Source of the DNA: Flavobacterium ginsengisoli | Lineage (GTDB): Bacteria > Bacteroidota > Bacteroidia > Flavobacteriales > Flavobacteriaceae | Direction of reading: 5' to 3' | Assembly: GCF_029625315.1 (NCBI RefSeq) | Contig: NZ_CP121110.1 | Span: 2,985,001 to 3,049,000 of the forward strand | Length of the DNA stretch: 64,000 nt | Part shown: positions 2,811-58,749 of the stretch, piece after piece | Layout: each line of letters begins with the position of its first letter | Numbering within the stretch: position 1 is the first letter of the stretch | Notes under the pieces: generated by a model | What the model saw: the letters and a program-made list of their open reading frames with translations, nothing else | Told to the model about the DNA's origin: nothing | Databases searched by the model: none | Program-made: the position numbers and the translations under genes

Positions 2811-2917
2811 GTTGTTATCTTTCCACGTTTGGCGTGGTAGAATGTAGCACCTTCTTCGTTTTACCGAAGGGTTGCTAAGGCTTCATCGGGTCTAATCCCT
2901 CGTCCTTTCTTTATAAC
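2811..2917 (-). promoter_or_regulatory. SAM-I (S-box) riboswitch upstream of metX
   Basis: The minus-strand RNA carries the S-box core in order: GAGGGATTAGACCCGATGAA, then GCCTTAGCAACC, a variable hairpin, GGTGCTACATTCTACC and a closing AAAGATAAC. The ends GTTAT and ATAAC form P1. This is the SAM-binding aptamer, expected to turn off metX-thrA when SAM is high. No T-rich terminator follows before metX, so control may act on translation or by an overlapping structure I cannot fold here. Confidence 0.93.
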
Positions 2918-2946
2918 ATTTCAATACGTGTTTGAACTTAACGGTG

Positions 2947-3960: not shown

Positions 3961-5049
3961 TTACAGCCAAACGGCTTCTTTACTCCTAATTCGCTCCGCA
4001 ATTTTCAGAATATCGGTTATAATTCCTCTAGAAATTGCTTGTTTGCAAGGTGGAGCGCTCTGAATTACGATTGGAATATCGGCATAAGATTTAGTGAAAA
4101 TTTCAAAAATGGTATCAGAACCTTTTAATTGTCCGATTGGAGAATTTATTGGTTCCGAAATTAATTTGACTTCTAAAGTTCCTTTTTCTACATCAAACTC
4201 TCCTACATATCTCAATACATGATTTTCTGCTTGAGTAATTTTGGCGATTTTAAAAGATTTATCGACAGCATCTTTGTTTAGCACTCCATTTTTCTCCAAA
4301 TGTTCTTCGGTTATAAAGGGCTTGATTGTAATGTCTGAAAACTCAAAATCTTTTCCTATTTCTCTGGCCAATATCAGAAGCTTTCTTGCAGAATCGTTTC
4401 CAGACAGATCTTCTTTAAAATTAGATTTCATTAAACCTAAAAGGCTCGCATCTTTTAAAACAGAAGAAAACGAAACATCTTCTGATGAAAATCGATTAAA
4501 GACATAACTCAAATTATCAGATAAAACACCTCGAATCTTCGTGATTTTTTCTCCAGAATAATATAGATCTCTTAAGGTCTGCAAAACAGGAATTCCAGTT
4601 TCAACCGACGTTTCGTACAAAAACTCCTTGTCATACTTTTTAAGATCTGCTCGTAGTTCTTTATATAAGTCAATCGGGAGCGTATTGGCTTTTTTGTTTA
4701 CTGCTACAATATGGAATCCATTTTTAATTAACGTATTGTAATGCTTCACCAATTCATCGCTGGCTGTTGCGTCTACGGCAATCAAGTTTTCGAATTCATT
4801 TTCTTGTGCAAATTCGACAATATCTTCTACTTTAAAAGGAACAGCCAATTGTCTAAAATTGGTTTCCCAAGCATAACCAACACCTTCTTTCTCAAAAAAG
4901 GCAACCGTCGAATTGGTTATTATTGGAAAATGAAAATCGACATTTTTACTTTCCAGAAAAAACTCCTGACTTTCAACAATTTGATTAATCAAAGTACTTC
5001 CGATATTTCCAATTCCGAAAAGGATAATGTTTATTTTAAGCTTTGACAT
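3961..5049 (-). CDS. hom: Homoserine dehydrogenase, stand-alone
   Basis: Reduces aspartate semialdehyde to homoserine. The N-terminal Rossmann motif FGIGNIGSTLINQ, the cofactor-domain segment VAVNKKANTLP and the catalytic-domain segment SGNDSARKLL are all present. The length (362 aa from MSKLKINI; the ATG 12 bp upstream is less likely) matches the dehydrogenase half of ThrA-type proteins with no C-terminal ACT domain, so no threonine-feedback domain is visible. It is a second copy beside the fused enzyme thrA. It lies downstream of metY on the same strand, separated by a hairpin-forming repeat. Confidence 0.85.
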   Translation of the reverse strand: MSKLKINIILFGIGNIGSTLINQIVESQEFFLESKNVDFHFPIITNSTVAFFEKEGVGYAWETNFRQLAVPFKVEDIVEFAQENEFENLIAVDATASDELVKHYNTLIKNGFHIVAVNKKANTLPIDLYKELRADLKKYDKEFLYETSVETGIPVLQTLRDLYYSGEKITKIRGVLSDNLSYVFNRFSSEDVSFSSVLKDASLLGLMKSNFKEDLSGNDSARKLLILAREIGKDFEFSDITIKPFITEEHLEKNGVLNKDAVDKSFKIAKITQAENHVLRYVGEFDVEKGTLEVKLISEPINSPIGQLKGSDTIFEIFTKSYADIPIVIQSAPPCKQAISRGIITDILKIAERIRSKEAVWL

Positions 5050-5073
5050 AATTTCTAACATTTTAATTTTTTA

Positions 5074-5264: not shown

Positions 5265-6567
5265 CTAATTTTTATTGATGCTGAATTGAGAAAGCGAAAC
5301 GTTCTCAAAAACAGTCTGAAGATCAGCAATTAAATCTTCAATATCTTCAATTCCCACAGACAGACGAATCAAATCTTTAGAAACTCCTGTTTCTATTTGT
5401 TCTGCTTCTGTCAATTGTTGGTGTGTTGTACTTGCTGGGTGAATAATCAGCGATTTTGTGTCACCAATATTCGCTAGCAGAGAGAATAATTTTGTGTCAT
5501 CTACCACTTTTTTAGCCGCATCAAAACCTCCTTTTAATCCGAAAGTGATAATGCCGCTTTGCCCTTCTGGCAGATATTCTTTAGCCAAATCATAATATTT
5601 ATTTGATTTTAAACCTGGATAATTTACCCAGACTACCTCATCTTGTTTTTCTAACCATTCAGCTAGAGCCAAAGCATTTTCACTGTGTTTCTTGATTCGA
5701 ATTGGAAGTGTTTCTAGTCCCTGAATAATCTGAAAAGCATTAAATGGACTCAAAGCAGAACCAAAATCACGTAGTCCTTCAATTCGAGCTTTTGCTATAA
5801 AAGCCGCATTTCCTAAGGCTTCATGATATACTAATCCGTGGTATCCTGCAGATGGCTCGGTAAATTCGGAATTTTCCGTTTGCCCAATCAAAGTTTCCAG
5901 CATCAATGATAACGCCTCCTAATGAAGTTCCGTTTCCTGCGATATATTTAGTTAAGGAATGAATTACAATATCGGCACCATATTTAATTGGGTTTAATAA
6001 ATAAGGTGTCGCAACTGTATTGTCTACTATAAATGGTACTTTGAATGCTTTGGCTTCTGCCGAAATTGCTTTTAAGTCTAATACATCTAATTTTGGATTT
6101 CCTAGAGACTCAACAAAGAAAGCTCTTGTGTTTTCTTTTGTCGCTTTTGTAAAGTTTTCAGGTTTTGAAGGATCTACAAATGTGGTAGTAATTCCTAATC
6201 TTGGCAAGGTAACTTTTAGAAGATTATAAGTTCCTCCGTATAAACTATTTGACGCAACAATATGATCTCCCGCTTTTAGCAAAGTCAATAAAGTTGTTGA
6301 AATTGCAGATGCTCCAGAAGCAGTTACTACAGCTCCAATTCCTCCTTCGAGTGCTGCCAAACGCTGTTCTAAAATGTCATTTGTTGGGTTATTTAATCTC
6401 GTGTAGATAAATCCAGCTTCGGCAAGACCAAATAAATTGGCCGCATGATCGGCGTTATTAAATACATATGATGATGTCTGATAAATAGGCACGGCTCTTG
6501 TTCCTGCGTTTTTAGTTACGTCGTGTCCTGCGTGTAATGCGTTTGTTGCAAATTTTTGTGTGCTCAT
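5265..6567 (-). CDS. metY: O-acetylhomoserine sulfhydrylase, frameshifted
   Basis: PLP enzyme that makes homocysteine from O-acetylhomoserine and sulfide. The first fragment carries family motifs YTRLNNPTNDILEQRLA, ASGASA, SLYGGTYNLL and the PLP-lysine region SLTKYIAGNGTS. The second carries GYHGLVYHEALG and the C-terminal IRLSVGIEDIEDLI. The frame changes near 5875-5885 (after GNFDWANGK), and the two parts join without missing sequence, so this is one gene of about 434 residues with an indel. A cystathionine gamma-synthase activity is less likely given the MetY-specific layout. It is preceded by a small ORF and a leader/attenuator. Confidence 0.9.
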
Positions 6568-6635: not shown

Positions 6636-6812
6636 TTAAGCTAAAATATCTTCAGCTTCTTCTTCAAGATCATATAAATGAAATAGTAATGATTTTTGTG
6701 TTTTTGTCTGCTGTGCAGGATCATATTTTAGTGTTTCAGCCGATGTCTCTTCCGAATTATTATTTCTTAATAAGTATTGAAATGCGATTGTATTTATATC
6801 TAGTGTATTCAT
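6636..6812 (-). CDS. Small unknown protein (58 aa) between attenuator and metY
   Basis: An acidic protein starting MNTLDINTIAFQYLLRNNN, with SEETSAETLKYDP in the middle and KSLLFHLYDLEEEAEDILA at the end. No family recognised, and no signal peptide or membrane span. It shares the SAE and SLLFxxY motifs with the 66-aa protein at 3110-3310, which has the same position behind an attenuator. Its stop is 68 bp before the metY start, so it is probably in the metY operon. Confidence 0.6.
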   Translation of the reverse strand: MNTLDINTIAFQYLLRNNNSEETSAETLKYDPAQQTKTQKSLLFHLYDLEEEAEDILA

Positions 6813-6838
6813 GATTTAAAATTTAAAATGTTGGAAAT

Positions 6839-6874
6839 AAAAAAGCCCTTTCGGATGGCGACCAAAAGGGCTTA
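6839..6874 (-). terminator. Attenuator terminator before the metY operon
   Basis: Minus-strand stem AAGCCCTTT / AAAGGGCTT with an inner GG/CC pair, followed by six T. Its 5' arm CUUUUGGU can alternatively pair with GCCAAAAG, the last codons of the leader ORF (6907-6914). A further hairpin, tatagtttaactata (6873-6887), lies between leader and terminator. Confidence 0.8.
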
Positions 6875-6903
6875 TAGTTTAACTATAACAAAGATTGTCT
6901 CTT

Positions 6904-6984
6904 TCACTTTTGGCAACAGCAAATTGGGATGCACATTTGCATCATCTTACAACACATCATATTTCTTTTTGCTATTGTTTTCAT
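6904..6984 (-). CDS. Met/Cys-rich leader peptide of metY (26 aa)
   Basis: A 26-codon ORF starting MKTIAKRNMMCCKMMQMC and ending IPICCCQK: six Met and six Cys. Such density of the pathway's own end-product codons is the hallmark of a ribosome-mediated attenuation leader. The last three sense codons (GCCAAAAG within them) are complementary to the 5' arm of the terminator downstream. Stalling at the Met/Cys codons would free this segment to act as antiterminator, while a ribosome reaching the stop would mask it. Function is inferred. Confidence 0.75.
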   Translation of the reverse strand: MKTIAKRNMMCCKMMQMCIPICCCQK

Positions 6985-7038
6985 TTTTATTTAAAATTTG
7001 AATTCGATTATTTTTTAAATTCGACTAATTCGATAGAG

Positions 7039-7070
7039 TAAATGTAATAAGTATTTTTTGAACGACCAAA
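7039..7070 (-). promoter_or_regulatory. Promoter of the metY leader transcript
   Basis: On the minus strand TTTGGTCG, 16 bp containing AAAAAATA, TACATTTA (7 of 8 to TAnnTTTG). The TTTGGTCG element, the A-tract and the exact spacing are shared with the TonB-receptor leader promoter at 10208-10239. Confidence 0.7.
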
Positions 7071-7099
7071 TTAAAATTGAAATTTTATACTATTTTTTT

Positions 7100-7142
7100 A
7101 AATTTCTTTCAAGCCTTTCAAATAAAGACTTGAAAGAAATTT
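7100..7142 (-). terminator. Hairpin after the TonB receptor gene, probable terminator
   Basis: 14-bp perfect stem aaatttctttcaag / cttgaaagaaattt immediately after the receptor stop codon. The expected T-run is only the TTT at the stem end, so efficiency is uncertain. Confidence 0.6.
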
Positions 7143-7148
7143 ATTTAA

Positions 7149-9995
7149 TTAGAATTTAAAGCTTAAACGGGCAAAACCAAATCTTCCGTTTAATCCGAAT
7201 TGAGAAACTGCTCTTGAATACGCAAACTGATTCGCATTTGTCAAATCTGTACTTGGCGCTGGCGACAAAGTTGGCGTTGTGTTTGTAAATGCAGGAGTTG
7301 CAGGATTATTTCTGTCTGGATAAACATCTCCTATATTATTAACTCCAATTGTAGCTCTAAAATGCTTGTTGATCTGATATCCTAAAGATAAATCTGTAAC
7401 CAATTTTGCGCTGTATTCCGGATGTTCGTACACAGAAGAAAATCCGTCTAAATTCACATCTGTTGCTCCTGGGTCTGTAACTTTTCCGAAATAGCTGTTT
7501 CTTAAATAAATATCCAGTTTTTTAATGCTGAATGTTGTCATCAAATTGGCCTTTACTTTCGGAATTGCTTCTTCTAAATATACTCTGCTTGATTCTGGAA
7601 AGAATGAATAAATATACGGCTCTCCACCTGCATCTACTATAGATTTTGGAATATGCAAATCGCCTACTCTTTTGGTTTCGTTGAAACTAAAAGCAAAATC
7701 ATTTCTAATTGTGAAATCCTGAATTACATCGTATTTCTGAGAAATTACCAAATCAATCCCTTTTGTTTCAGAATCAATTCCGTTTGTCCAGAATGAAGCT
7801 CTTTCTACTCCTTTCAAATCAAATGCTTGCTGAAATAAAGTCAACGCCTCTGCCTGTTCTGGCGAAGTTGCAGCACCAATTTGCGCATCTGTTGGTCTAG
7901 AATATTGTCCAGACAATACAATTCTGTCGTTGATTCTTGTAAAATAAGCATCAGTTGCAATTGTTATGTTAGCTTCAGGAATTTTGAATGTAAATCCTGT
8001 ACTAATGCTTTTTGATTTTTCTGGTTTTAAACTTTCAATTCCAATGCTTTTTGCCGCTTGCGAATCGTTTGTAAAATACCCCACTTGATATGGAGAACCG
8101 TTTATAAACTGAGTAGAACTTGACTCAAAATATCTTTGCTGTAAAGACGGCGCTCTAAAACCTGTCTGTCCAGAAATTCTCCAATTAATATTATCATTTA
8201 ATTTTAAAAGAGAAGCCAGTTTAAACGTAACCGTATTTCCAAAATCTGAATAGTTTTCATAACGTGCAGCTCCATTTATAAGCCATTTTTCAGTGGCATT
8301 CAATTCTAAATCAACATAAGCAGCACCACTTTTTCTGTTTTTTTCTTTAGCATCCGAAGGCTGAAATCCTGAAAATCCTTGTGCTCCTGCTCCACGTTTG
8401 TTTCCAAAGAAGTCAGTTACAATTAATGGTGAATTGCTTGGCAGAATTCCTGAAACTAAATTTCCGTTTACATCATACAATCCGTAAGAAGCTTCTTCTC
8501 CTGCTTTAATTTCGTAGTTTTCATATCTGAATTCACCTCCAAAAGCAACATTCAGTCCAGCAAGAACATCTAGTTTTTTACTAAAATCCAAATTGGTTGT
8601 GCTTTGTAAAAACGAAACTTTTCCTGCATCAAAACTAAAAGGAGAATTTGTCCCTAAAGTTGCATTGATGGAATTATTTACATCATAATTAAAAGAGTTT
8701 GTTCCTAAATTTGTGCTTAAATCAGTATCAAATCCAAATAATTGCGTAGTTACACCAACTGCTGCAGAAGCATCTAAAATTTTTGATTCAATTTCTGGCA
8801 AAAATCCGTTTTGGTACACTTGAGTGAAAGTTCCAGAACCATTTGGCAATCTATTAAAGGCATATGATTTTCCGCTTCTATACGATATTCCACCAAAAGA
8901 ATACAAAGAAGTTGTTTCTGTTAAAGGATATTTTGCATTGTAATATGCTTGTCCTGAAGCCAATTCTGACTGACCAACACTCATATTATAATCACTTCTC
9001 TGCTGTCCTCTGTAAGCTAATTCATTATTAGTAACATCAAAATTCAAAGCGGTCTGCATCTGCGCAATTGTTGAAGCTGATGCAATAGCACTTTGTTGAG
9101 CTGTTGTAAAATAACCTACTTGTGGAGCATATTGTTTTAAAGAAGACAAAATCTGAGCTGAATTTGTAGTCGTATTAATGTTGCTAAACAAAGAGTTAAT
9201 TTCTACACCATCTTGTGCGACTCTATTTTCTACTGCATTGTAAGCATTAAAAATAGCATTGCTTCTAATTCCTGCTCTACTTGTTGCTTGTCTCGTTACC
9301 GCAGTTCCAGTAATATTCAAGAAACTTCCCGGTTTGCCCAATGAAGTTCCGTAGTTTAAATCTATTTGGGCAGTTTGTCCGTCTGCTCCTCCTTCAAAAT
9401 TATTTGATCCCGAAGATAAATTTGCTCCATATTGAATTCCTCCTGTTAGATAATTAGCGTTTTTCTTTAGAACAATATTAATAACTCCCGCAATCGCATC
9501 AGAACCGTATTGTGCGGCAGCTCCATCTCTTAAAACTTCAATTCTTTCTATGGCAAAAGACGGAATGGCATTTAGGTCTGTTCCAACAGATCCTCTTCCT
9601 GGCGATCCGTTTATGTTTACTAAAGCACTTGTGTGTCTTCTTTTTCCGTTTACTAAAATCAGAACCTGATCCGGCCCTAATCCTCTTAATTGTGCAGGAT
9701 CTACGTGATCTGTTGCATCTGCTGTAGAAGTTGGATTACTCGTAAACGAAGGAGCAACATAATTTAAAATTTGAGTTACGCTTGTTTGCGGCGCTCCTTT
9801 TGTTATTTCTGATACATTAAAAACATCTACCGGAACTGGCACATCTGTTTTAACTCTGTTTTTACTTCTTGATCCAATAATAGTAACTTCAGACAGTTCG
9901 TTGTTTTTTAAACTGTCTTGCTCTTTTTTATTGTCTTGAGCATAAAGTCCTGAAAAAGTCACAAGACCTAAAACGATTAGTACATTTTTCTTCAT
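7149..9995 (-). CDS. TonB-dependent outer-membrane receptor, sulfur-regulated by context
   Basis: 948-residue outer-membrane active transporter. Signal peptide MKKNVLIVLGLVTFSGLYAQ, a short TonB-box-like segment (SEVTIIGSR), then a plug domain with QLRGLGPDQVLILVNGKRR and IERIEVLRDGAAAQYGSDAI, then a long 22-strand-type barrel ending in aromatic RLSFKF. There is no N-terminal carboxypeptidase-like domain and no SusD partner. The substrate is not visible. The Met/Cys leader and attenuator in front, and its place between metY and metK, suggest a sulfur compound such as methionine, a peptide or an organosulfur metabolite. That is inference. Confidence 0.88.
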   Translation of the reverse strand: MKKNVLIVLGLVTFSGLYAQDNKKEQDSLKNNELSEVTIIGSRSKNRVKTDVPVPVDVFNVSEITKGAPQTSVTQILNYVAPSFTSNPTSTADATDHVDPAQLRGLGPDQVLILVNGKRRHTSALVNINGSPGRGSVGTDLNAIPSFAIERIEVLRDGAAAQYGSDAIAGVINIVLKKNANYLTGGIQYGANLSSGSNNFEGGADGQTAQIDLNYGTSLGKPGSFLNITGTAVTRQATSRAGIRSNAIFNAYNAVENRVAQDGVEINSLFSNINTTTNSAQILSSLKQYAPQVGYFTTAQQSAIASASTIAQMQTALNFDVTNNELAYRGQQRSDYNMSVGQSELASGQAYYNAKYPLTETTSLYSFGGISYRSGKSYAFNRLPNGSGTFTQVYQNGFLPEIESKILDASAAVGVTTQLFGFDTDLSTNLGTNSFNYDVNNSINATLGTNSPFSFDAGKVSFLQSTTNLDFSKKLDVLAGLNVAFGGEFRYENYEIKAGEEASYGLYDVNGNLVSGILPSNSPLIVTDFFGNKRGAGAQGFSGFQPSDAKEKNRKSGAAYVDLELNATEKWLINGAARYENYSDFGNTVTFKLASLLKLNDNINWRISGQTGFRAPSLQQRYFESSSTQFINGSPYQVGYFTNDSQAAKSIGIESLKPEKSKSISTGFTFKIPEANITIATDAYFTRINDRIVLSGQYSRPTDAQIGAATSPEQAEALTLFQQAFDLKGVERASFWTNGIDSETKGIDLVISQKYDVIQDFTIRNDFAFSFNETKRVGDLHIPKSIVDAGGEPYIYSFFPESSRVYLEEAIPKVKANLMTTFSIKKLDIYLRNSYFGKVTDPGATDVNLDGFSSVYEHPEYSAKLVTDLSLGYQINKHFRATIGVNNIGDVYPDRNNPATPAFTNTTPTLSPAPSTDLTNANQFAYSRAVSQFGLNGRFGFARLSFKF

Positions 9996-10059: not shown

Positions 10060-10090
10060 AAAAAAAACCTCTGCGGTTCGGCAGAGGTTC
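10060..10090 (-). terminator. Attenuator terminator before the TonB receptor
   Basis: Stem AACCTCTGC / GCAGAGGTT around a 6-nt loop, followed on the minus strand by eight T. The 5' arm CUCUGC can pair with GCAGAG inside the leader ORF (10127-10132), and the leader repeats the 8-mer CCGCAGAG of the terminator 3' arm. Confidence 0.85.
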
Positions 10091-10114: not shown

Positions 10115-10183
10115 CTACAATAGCGTCTCTGCGGATAACTCCGGCATCTTACAAGACATCATATTGCAAACTGTAAATTTCAT
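10115..10183 (-). CDS. Met/Cys leader peptide of the TonB receptor (22 aa)
   Basis: A 22-codon ORF, MKFTVCNMMSCKM followed by PELSAETLL. The core CNMMSCKM resembles RNMMCCKM of the metY leader. The segment GCAGAG in its last codons is complementary to the 5' arm of the terminator about 35 nt downstream and lies within reach of a ribosome sitting on the stop codon. Candidate attenuation leader sensing Met/Cys tRNA charging. Confidence 0.7.
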   Translation of the reverse strand: MKFTVCNMMSCKMPELSAETLL

Positions 10184-10358: not shown

Positions 10359-10367
10359 CACCCGAAA

Positions 10368-10470
10368 CAGAGGAAAAATTTGAACTGATTGCAACCTCTT
10401 CATAATGAAAGGATTTCATTATGAATGCCGAAAGATTCATTTCAGCAGTAAAAAATGCTAAAGCAGGAAC
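10368..10470 (+). promoter_or_regulatory. SAM-II-type riboswitch with an enlarged loop, upstream of metK
   Basis: P1 AGAGG (10369-10373) pairs with CCTCT (10395-10399) around AAAAATTTGAACTGATTGCA. The conserved ATTGCAACC block and the downstream AAAAAATGCTAAAGCAGG block correspond to the SAM-II core, whose 3' strand forms the H-type pseudoknot. Between them is an extra perfect 10-bp hairpin, CATAATGAAA / TTTCATTATG (10401-10423), consistent with long-loop SAM-II variants. The assignment rests on motif order, not on a covariance search. Confidence 0.7.
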
Positions 10471-10541
10471 TCTCCTTTAGCTCTTTTTAGCAATCATTTT
10501 TCTCGCTTAAATTAAAATTAATACATTTTTATTACATTATT

Positions 10542-58395: not shown

Positions 58396-58427
58396 TTTGA
58401 TTTTTCTGTTTTTTTAATCTAATTTTG
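58396..58427 (+). promoter_or_regulatory. rpsO promoter
   Basis: TTTG at 58396-58399, 20 bp, TAATTTTG at 58420-58427: full consensus with ideal spacing. It serves as an internal standard for the promoter calls in this window. Confidence 0.75.
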
Positions 58428-58483
58428 CACCCGTCTTACAAAAGTTGTATGACATACATAAAAATCATTAAAACAATATTGGA

Positions 58484-58749
58484 ATGTATTTAACTAAAGA
58501 AAAGAAAGAAGAAATCTTCGCACAACACGGTGATGCAAAAAACACTGGTAAAGCTGAAGGTCAAATCGCGTTGTTCACTTACAGAATTTCTCACTTAACT
58601 GAACACTTGAAAAAAATCGTCACGATTACAACACTGAGCGTTCTCTTGTACTATTAGTAGGTAAAAGAAGAGCTTTGTTGGACTACTTGAAAAAGAAAGA
58701 TATCAACAGATATCGTGAGATTATCAAAGTATTGAATATCAGAAAATAA
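58484..58749 (+). CDS. rpsO: Ribosomal protein S15, frameshifted in an A-run
   Basis: MYLTKEKKEEIFAQHGDAKN, GKAEGQIALFTYRISHLTEH and, after the break, NRHDYNTERSLVLLVGKRRA are S15. The run at 58610-58616 has seven A where eight give HLKKNRHDYN. As a ribosomal gene this must be intact in a living cell (88 residues), which is strong evidence that the indels in this window are sequencing errors. rpsO-pnp order is conserved. Confidence 0.95.

Follow-up and report, generated by a model that had tools for sequence, protein, structure and literature searches.

The trp-, his-, leu- and phe-type attenuators work by ribosome-mediated transcription attenuation. Methionine pathways are usually cited as being controlled by riboswitches or repressors, and leaders rich in cysteine and methionine are known from the CutF-like kind, which serves in copper sensing.

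Within the genus Flavobacterium, strong clues that leader peptides attenuate amino-acid operons are reported in passages of a 2021 study of F. psychrophilum (PMC9723704), which also places structured 5' elements upstream of pheA and hisG; the words "methionine" and "metY" are absent from its main text, and its supplementary tables may list metY. For Bacteroides thetaiotaomicron, the relevant passages of PMC7366714 describe short ORFs reminiscent of leader peptides and name no methionine ones. Actinobacterial Cys leaders, according to passages of PMC1262725, come without conserved terminator-capable hairpins, and no conserved RNA structure is given there before methionine operons. The exchange of one sensor for another has been worked out for hisS in the part of PMC2965389 that bears on it, and the main text of that paper contains no words starting "bacteroid" or "flavobacter". 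Searches of open-licence PubMed Central full texts brought up no account of attenuation by a Met or Met/Cys leader in Bacteroidota. An initial annotation of the DNA studied here had taken a combined Met/Cys sensor in flavobacteria for an undescribed class; as far as the literature was searched this is true of its response to Met/Cys, whereas attenuation by leader peptides as such is already on record for flavobacteria in those passages of PMC9723704.

Results

The window is a stretch of 64,000 nucleotides of Flavobacterium ginsengisoli contig NZ_CP121110.1 (Table 1). Upstream of metY, the initial annotation had read a 26-codon ORF with six Met and six Cys codons, an intrinsic terminator behind it and an 8-bp pairing (one G-U) between the end of the ORF and the terminator, and all of this was recovered here. 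The ORF, leader A, contains 6 Met, the start counted, and 6 Cys. It is followed by a terminator-like hairpin with 12 pairs, a 7-nt loop and a T-run, and on refolding the leader end pairs with the terminator 5' arm CUUUUGGU as described. The order of leader A, terminator, 58-aa ORF and metY likewise agrees. In addition, a distal attenuator (leader B), absent from the initial annotation, shares the plan of attenuator A and lies upstream of a TonB receptor.

Table 1. Features of the two attenuators and their surroundings, in window positions
Feature	Position	Strand	Basis or remark
Leader A, proximal leader ORF MKTIAKRNMMCCKMMQMCIPICCCQK	6904..6984	-	metY of relatives is preceded by related leaders
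Segment 1 (CAATAGCAAA), pairs with 5' part of segment 2	6968..6977	-	permutation test, fold
Segment 1 partner (TTTGCTGTTG), last codons of leader A	6914..6923	-	permutation test, fold
Segment 2 core (GCCAAAAG), antiterminator 5' strand	6907..6914	-	duplex tests, folds
Small hairpin TTATAGT-TAA-ACTATAA within antiterminator loop	6872..6888	-	folds; similar sequence at several loci
Segment 3 core (CTTTTGGT), terminator 5' arm common to terminator and antiterminator	6861..6868	-	folds
Intrinsic terminator hairpin A	6843..6873	-	T-rich tail 6842-6835; covariation
Weak Bacteroidota-type promoter-like site TTTG-20-TACATTTA upstream of leader A	7039..7070	-	motif; 21% of shuffled sequences match too
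58-aa ORF, first gene past attenuator A; conserved small protein	6636..6812	-	97 homologues
metY (O-acetylhomoserine sulfhydrylase), frameshift-split in assembly	5265..6567	-	frames 5821-6567 and 5265-5906
Homoserine dehydrogenase, gene after metY	3961..5061	-	
SAM-I riboswitch upstream of metX (1751-2740), same gene cluster	2812..2919	-	Rfam
Leader B, distal leader ORF MKFTVCNMMSCKMPELSAETLL	10115..10183	-	profile gives no second place in genome
Leader B segment 2 (GCAGAG)	10127..10132	-	read from sequence; same segment in relatives
Terminator B (AACCTCTGC..GCAGAGGTT)	10066..10089	-	T-run to 10059; folds; covariation in relatives
TonB-dependent receptor, between attenuators B and A	7149..9995	-	

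Of the 255 window ORFs that start with ATG and have 18-40 codons, both strands counted, leader A has the highest Met+Cys count (12, the next best being 7); for non-start residues, Met stands at 20.7% and Cys at 15.4%, as against 2.4% and 3.4% in the window's short ORFs. A profile of 14 proximal leaders, including the window's own, gave no second place for leader A in the 5.4-Mb genome up to E 10, nor did a profile including the window's own leader B give one for leader B. Further copies of the two leaders were thus not found by a kind of search that would overlook leaders of unlike sequence, given that in some of nine other genomes searched such profiles gave weak matches or none. No SAM aptamer matched at leader A, either at the Rfam gathering score or in the relaxed list for 6800-7120. 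Both leaders fall below the gathering cut-offs of the Rfam leader families (for leader A, Phe_leader 22.5 bits against 55 and Trp_leader 15.5 against 41; for leader B, His_leader 18.6 against 49), and the relaxed-threshold scan across both attenuators returned sub-threshold matches only.

The 58-aa protein has no Pfam or NCBIfam match, and those of its homologues that bear source names are nearly all from Flavobacterium; a role as a regulator was considered and found no support among its 97 homologues. While metY lies in two frames in this assembly, in close relatives the gene is uninterrupted, at about 436 aa. The hisG gene (G000:C1:970776-971239) is frame-split in the same manner as metY (5821-5906), relatives' genes again being open, and sequencing error seems likelier for both than two pseudogenes. 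A SAM-II riboswitch lies at 10364-10471 (+) upstream of metK and, together with the SAM-I element before metX, flanks the leader-controlled genes, so that three kinds of Met-related sensor fall within about 8 kb. Rfam also places an S15-Flavobacteria ribosomal protein leader at 58420-58486 (+), and PAPS-reductase genes and pattern matches beyond the met locus were located. In this genome, a His-rich ORF (MISNQLHHHHFHYCSQAMC) precedes hisG and a Phe/Tyr-rich ORF ending NRFYFSNSFYFFFSRSEDCAMVI precedes pheA (L258, L259, L262); these ORFs have relatives in the three other genus genomes tested, in a search that covered ORFs, and agree with the attenuation described for F. psychrophilum in passages of PMC9723704.

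The initial annotation had hung its reading in part on the presence of the ORF and of the leader-arm pairing in relatives, and both proved to be conserved. Some MetY homologue is present in 101 of 101 genomes of the genus sample, whose assignment to Flavobacterium rests on named relatives of 99-100% identity. Loci of at least 71% identity occur in 59 of these genomes, one of which has two, giving 60 loci; in up to 1000 nt of upstream sequence at each, we looked for an ORF rich in Met and Cys codons with a terminator behind it. Leader attenuators precede metY at 59 of the 60, under a label that demanded at least 4 Met+Cys plus a terminator and hence was not blind. F. psychrophilum is among the carriers of a Met/Cys leader with terminator (L210). 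The sole genus locus with neither a terminator-linked leader nor SAM-I, L036, has a small upstream ORF ending MCFCC.

Family-wide, metY was found in 99 of 149 genomes, 97 of them outside the genus, and the 69 loci examined comprise 9 with a leader, 59 with a SAM-I motif and 1 with neither. Among 80 named loci, 67 have a leader and 13 SAM-I; the counts by recorded genus follow (leader/SAM: Flavobacterium 53/0, Christiangramia 3/0, Gillisia 2/0, Lutibacter 1/0, Salegentibacter 1/0, Winogradskyella 0/7, Aquimarina 0/3, none recorded 7/3). At none of the 209 loci in these partly overlapping Flavobacteriaceae sets (the 60 genus loci coming from 59 genomes) do a leader and SAM-I occur together upstream of metY. 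SAM-I was called by matching a sequence pattern within 600 nt, an approach that recovered 18 of 18 Rfam matches in the family and missed some outside it (e.g. L114, L123); rescanning leader loci to 1000 nt gave no match, three of them offering less than 600 nt of sequence. Rfam itself placed SAM-I upstream of metY at 18 of 18 leaderless loci tested and at none of the 40 leader-bearing loci tested, the window included. At four of these 40 (L084, L106, L214, L220), Rfam SAM-I stands just 3' of metY, like the window's before metX, so that both sensor types can share one cluster, before different genes.

The leader element occupies the position where many relatives have a SAM-I riboswitch. On a MetY tree of 129 fragments, the leader and SAM labels need four changes, whose direction the tree does not give. 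Well-supported branches by themselves already require three or four, according to which label is counted.

For the tests below, 201 element rows were reduced to 174 distinct ones and 173 were kept, 95 proximal (A) and 78 distal (B); a sequence rule gave the A/B labels, of which those of L234 and L250 were corrected by hand. Dropped before counting were L065 (a paralogue of 51% identity), five rows, representing four peptides, of ORFs lying far upstream, and one L025 element, the last two kinds being judged spurious.

Methionine is the constant feature of the leaders. In 90 distinct proximal leaders the internal Met codons never number fewer than 3, and Cys ranges from 0 to 7; B elements have at least 1 internal Met throughout, and 0 to 4 Cys. 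In one lineage with Met runs (L058-L064), Cys drops to 0-2 per proximal leader, and 14 aligned proximal leaders share no invariant Cys of the kind a metal-binding motif would have. Proximal leaders vary widely in sequence and length (19-40 aa), with an N-terminus MKTIA common to many close relatives. Segment 2 follows at a distance of 12 nt or more for 505 of 541 internal Met codons, and each of the 95 A elements has at least one such codon. Given its presence throughout, and the range of Cys in both A and B, methionine is the main candidate signal and cysteine a lineage-dependent second one.

Leaders pair better with their own terminator arm than with permuted ones. The own duplex comes to -11.89 kcal/mol against -9.81 for permuted partners in A (28 representatives), and -12.30 against -9.96 in B (50 representatives), with P 5e-5 in each, the floor of 20,000 permutations. 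When the codons of the leader ends were shuffled, pairing was as good in 7.8% of trials for A and in 11% for B. Compensatory changes between leader and terminator, which the initial annotation had suggested looking for, are found in the B antiterminator and are weaker in fixed columns of A. In an alignment of 32 of the 78 B elements, hand-picked and without a group that pairs in a different register (terminator arm CCTCCC), 90.2% of cells are paired and 12 are changed on both sides, as against 2.4 when shuffled (0/500). One pair shows A-U 19, C-G 7, G-C 3 and G-U 3 times; such changes fall at only 2 of 7 pairs, as against 1.2 shuffled (129/500 as high), and 18 of the 32 elements lack the outermost pair. 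For A (26 of 95 elements, L045 and L053 being left out of 28 listed), fixed columns are 81.7% paired, with shuffles at 79.7, and contain 4 both-side cells against 1.6 (16/500), at 2 pairs against 1.4 shuffled (226/500). The A register slides, and the duplex reaches 9-11 bp in L090, L230, L237, L241 and L242.

The terminators covary strongly in both A and B, the A helix being 100% paired with 38 both-side changes in 26 elements. B elements conserve the motif CCGCAGAG in differing reading frames, which give PQR in some elements and SAE in others, and in 9 of 95 A elements the pairing segment starts at or after the stop codon and is nevertheless kept. This frame independence points to selection on the RNA and not on the peptide.

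Folds were computed with an assumed ribosome footprint of 12 nt ahead of the A site. In the window, stalls at Met9, 10, 14, 15 or 17 or at Cys11, 12 or 18 are predicted to give the antiterminator at -14.3 kcal/mol or better, while stalls at Cys22-24, too near segment 2, give none, and a ribosome at the stop codon gives the terminator fold. When the ribosome is stalled at the first internal Met and the 3' arm is still to be made, the antiterminator is the minimum-energy fold of 91 of 95 A and 74 of 78 B elements; with a ribosome at the stop it is never so (0/95 A, 0/78 B), by construction, since the segment is masked there. The control codons are therefore placed as the proposal requires: under the assumed footprint, stalling would leave segment 2 exposed in the folds, and its masking by a ribosome at the stop follows from position.

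Untranslated leaders fold as antiterminators in 78 of 95 A and 38 of 78 B elements, so that, unlike trp, the operon may stay on when translation is lost. The segment 1:2 helix is better in own than in permuted combinations in A (62 representatives, P 5e-5), with no gain in B (P 0.76), and in the window it stacks beside 2:3 and does not exclude it. A trp-like 1:2 protector is therefore not claimed, despite its permutation support in A, and given this stacking and the folds of untranslated leaders, a trp-like off state without translation is unsupported.

Two attenuators stand in series at 30 of the 60 genus metY loci. In many relatives the distal one lies directly upstream of the proximal one, without the intervening TonB receptor, and transcription from an upstream promoter would then have to pass both. 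A promoter motif precedes 43 of 78 B, 38 of 58 separate A and 5 of 36 close-tandem A elements, and matches 21% of shuffled sequences as well; the pattern suggests, short of proof, that a close tandem is served by a single promoter. One contig (G030, C8) has two metY copies about 3 kb apart (L028, L037), each with its own leader attenuator pair of differing sequence.

Outside the family, we examined 26 metY-like loci of other Bacteroidia, about 50% identical. At 11 of them, an ORF within 500 nt upstream has 4 or more Cys among its 12 final codons, as compared with 0.2% of block-shuffled controls and 0 of 59 SAM-only Flavobacteriaceae loci. Rfam SAM-I was found at 14 of the first 20 loci run. 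At eight of these 14 (L112, L114, L115, L116, L119, L123, L131, L133) a Cys-run ORF begins 2-14 nt past the aptamer; it lies 13 nt past it at L118 and L125 when two scans are combined, and was not found just past it at L120, L121, L122 and L127. With this spacing, SAM might gate translation of a candidate cysteine-sensing leader, making a possible two-input switch. Two Met/Cys-rich leaders in tandem precede the metY-like genes of L109, L111, L117 and L126, which belong to other Bacteroidia families and have no Rfam SAM hit. In our own scan, a leader joined to an intrinsic terminator occurs at only L109 and L117 of the 26.

Discussion

We propose, with a probability of roughly 0.85, that the element is a ribosome-mediated transcription attenuator that senses methionine, and in the window's lineage probably cysteine too, and controls the operon of the 58-aa ORF, metY and homoserine dehydrogenase. 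We infer that when charged tRNA-Met is short (or charged tRNA-Cys at Cys11, 12 and 18), the ribosome would stall within the leader, the leader end would pair with the terminator 5' arm and RNA polymerase would read through; in good supply, a ribosome reaching the stop codon would cover segment 2 and the terminator would form. In the window, a second attenuator, of the same presumed design but different sequence, would act ahead of the TonB receptor. The attenuation interpretation of the initial annotation thus gains support from comparison of sequences, through the conservation of the leader, own-versus-permuted pairing and codon spacing. Its combined Met/Cys sensor stands in part: Met is constant in all proximal leaders, but Cys is not (0-7), and Cys22-24 are inactive in the folds.

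Three other readings have to be weighed. The leader might act chiefly on translation or mRNA stability, by coupling to the 58-aa ORF or through Rho, with the hairpin as a processing or pause site. The 58-aa ORF does lie close behind the leader in the window's lineage, and leader plus terminator is found at only 2 of 26 metY-like loci outside the family, though Cys-run ORFs are common there. However, the strong covariation is that of terminator hairpins with T-runs, and terminators are kept where no 58-aa ORF lies between leader and metY (e.g. L028, L033, L024), and we consider this reading improbable. We give somewhat less credit still to the possibility that a thiophilic metal such as copper binds the Met/Cys-rich nascent peptide, so that metal-dependent stalling and not amino-acid supply sets the switch. 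Although Met and Cys clusters look like soft-metal ligands and a TonB receptor follows leader B in the window, proximal leaders of the L058-L064 lineage carry only 0-2 Cys, the RNA is kept while the C-terminal residues change with reading frame, the genes downstream (metY, homoserine dehydrogenase) belong to the methionine pathway, and what replaces the element in relatives is a SAM sensor and no metal sensor. That the ORF encodes a functional small protein (e.g. a metal-binding one) and pairs incidentally is very improbable, for despite the common MKTIA its length and sequence vary widely, its N-terminal codons make up segment 1, for which own pairing is better than permuted, as it is for the leader and the terminator arm.

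On the reading as a Met-sensing attenuator, the leader is unusual in that its own start codon needs Met-tRNA, and this may bear on both the apparent rarity of Met leaders and the stacking of two different attenuators. For Bacteroidota as a whole, we would give about even odds to a wider picture in which Met/Cys-sensing leaders are widespread at metY and are exchanged with or fused to SAM sensing, one or two attenuators replacing SAM-I in Flavobacterium and some relatives and a SAM-gated Cys leader serving in other Bacteroidia. Within one family, the same gene has either a riboswitch or a translated sensor upstream, with about four switches on the gene tree, and this alternation opens the choice of SAM or charged tRNA as the sensed signal to direct test.

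Like the trp, his, leu and phe attenuators, the metY element combines a short leader ORF rich in codons for the pathway product, an antiterminator over the terminator 5' arm and a biosynthetic operon downstream. It differs from them in its Met (and Cys) codons, in often coming as two in series, in alternating with a SAM riboswitch and in that its untranslated leader is often predicted to antiterminate. Unlike a CutF-type copper leader, it has no conserved Cys motif, none being invariant in 14 leaders and Cys ranging from 0 to 7 in 90. The actinobacterial Cys leader peptides, as described in passages of PMC1262725, resemble it in their runs of Cys codons near the stop before sulfur genes. It shares gene, position and pathway with the SAM-I (S-box) riboswitch before metY in other Flavobacteriaceae, whereas SAM-I is a SAM-binding aptamer that is absent upstream of metY at the leader-bearing loci tested. 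In this respect the locus is like the exchange between T-box or riboswitch and leader peptide treated in part of PMC2965389, in which different sensors replace one another at one gene.
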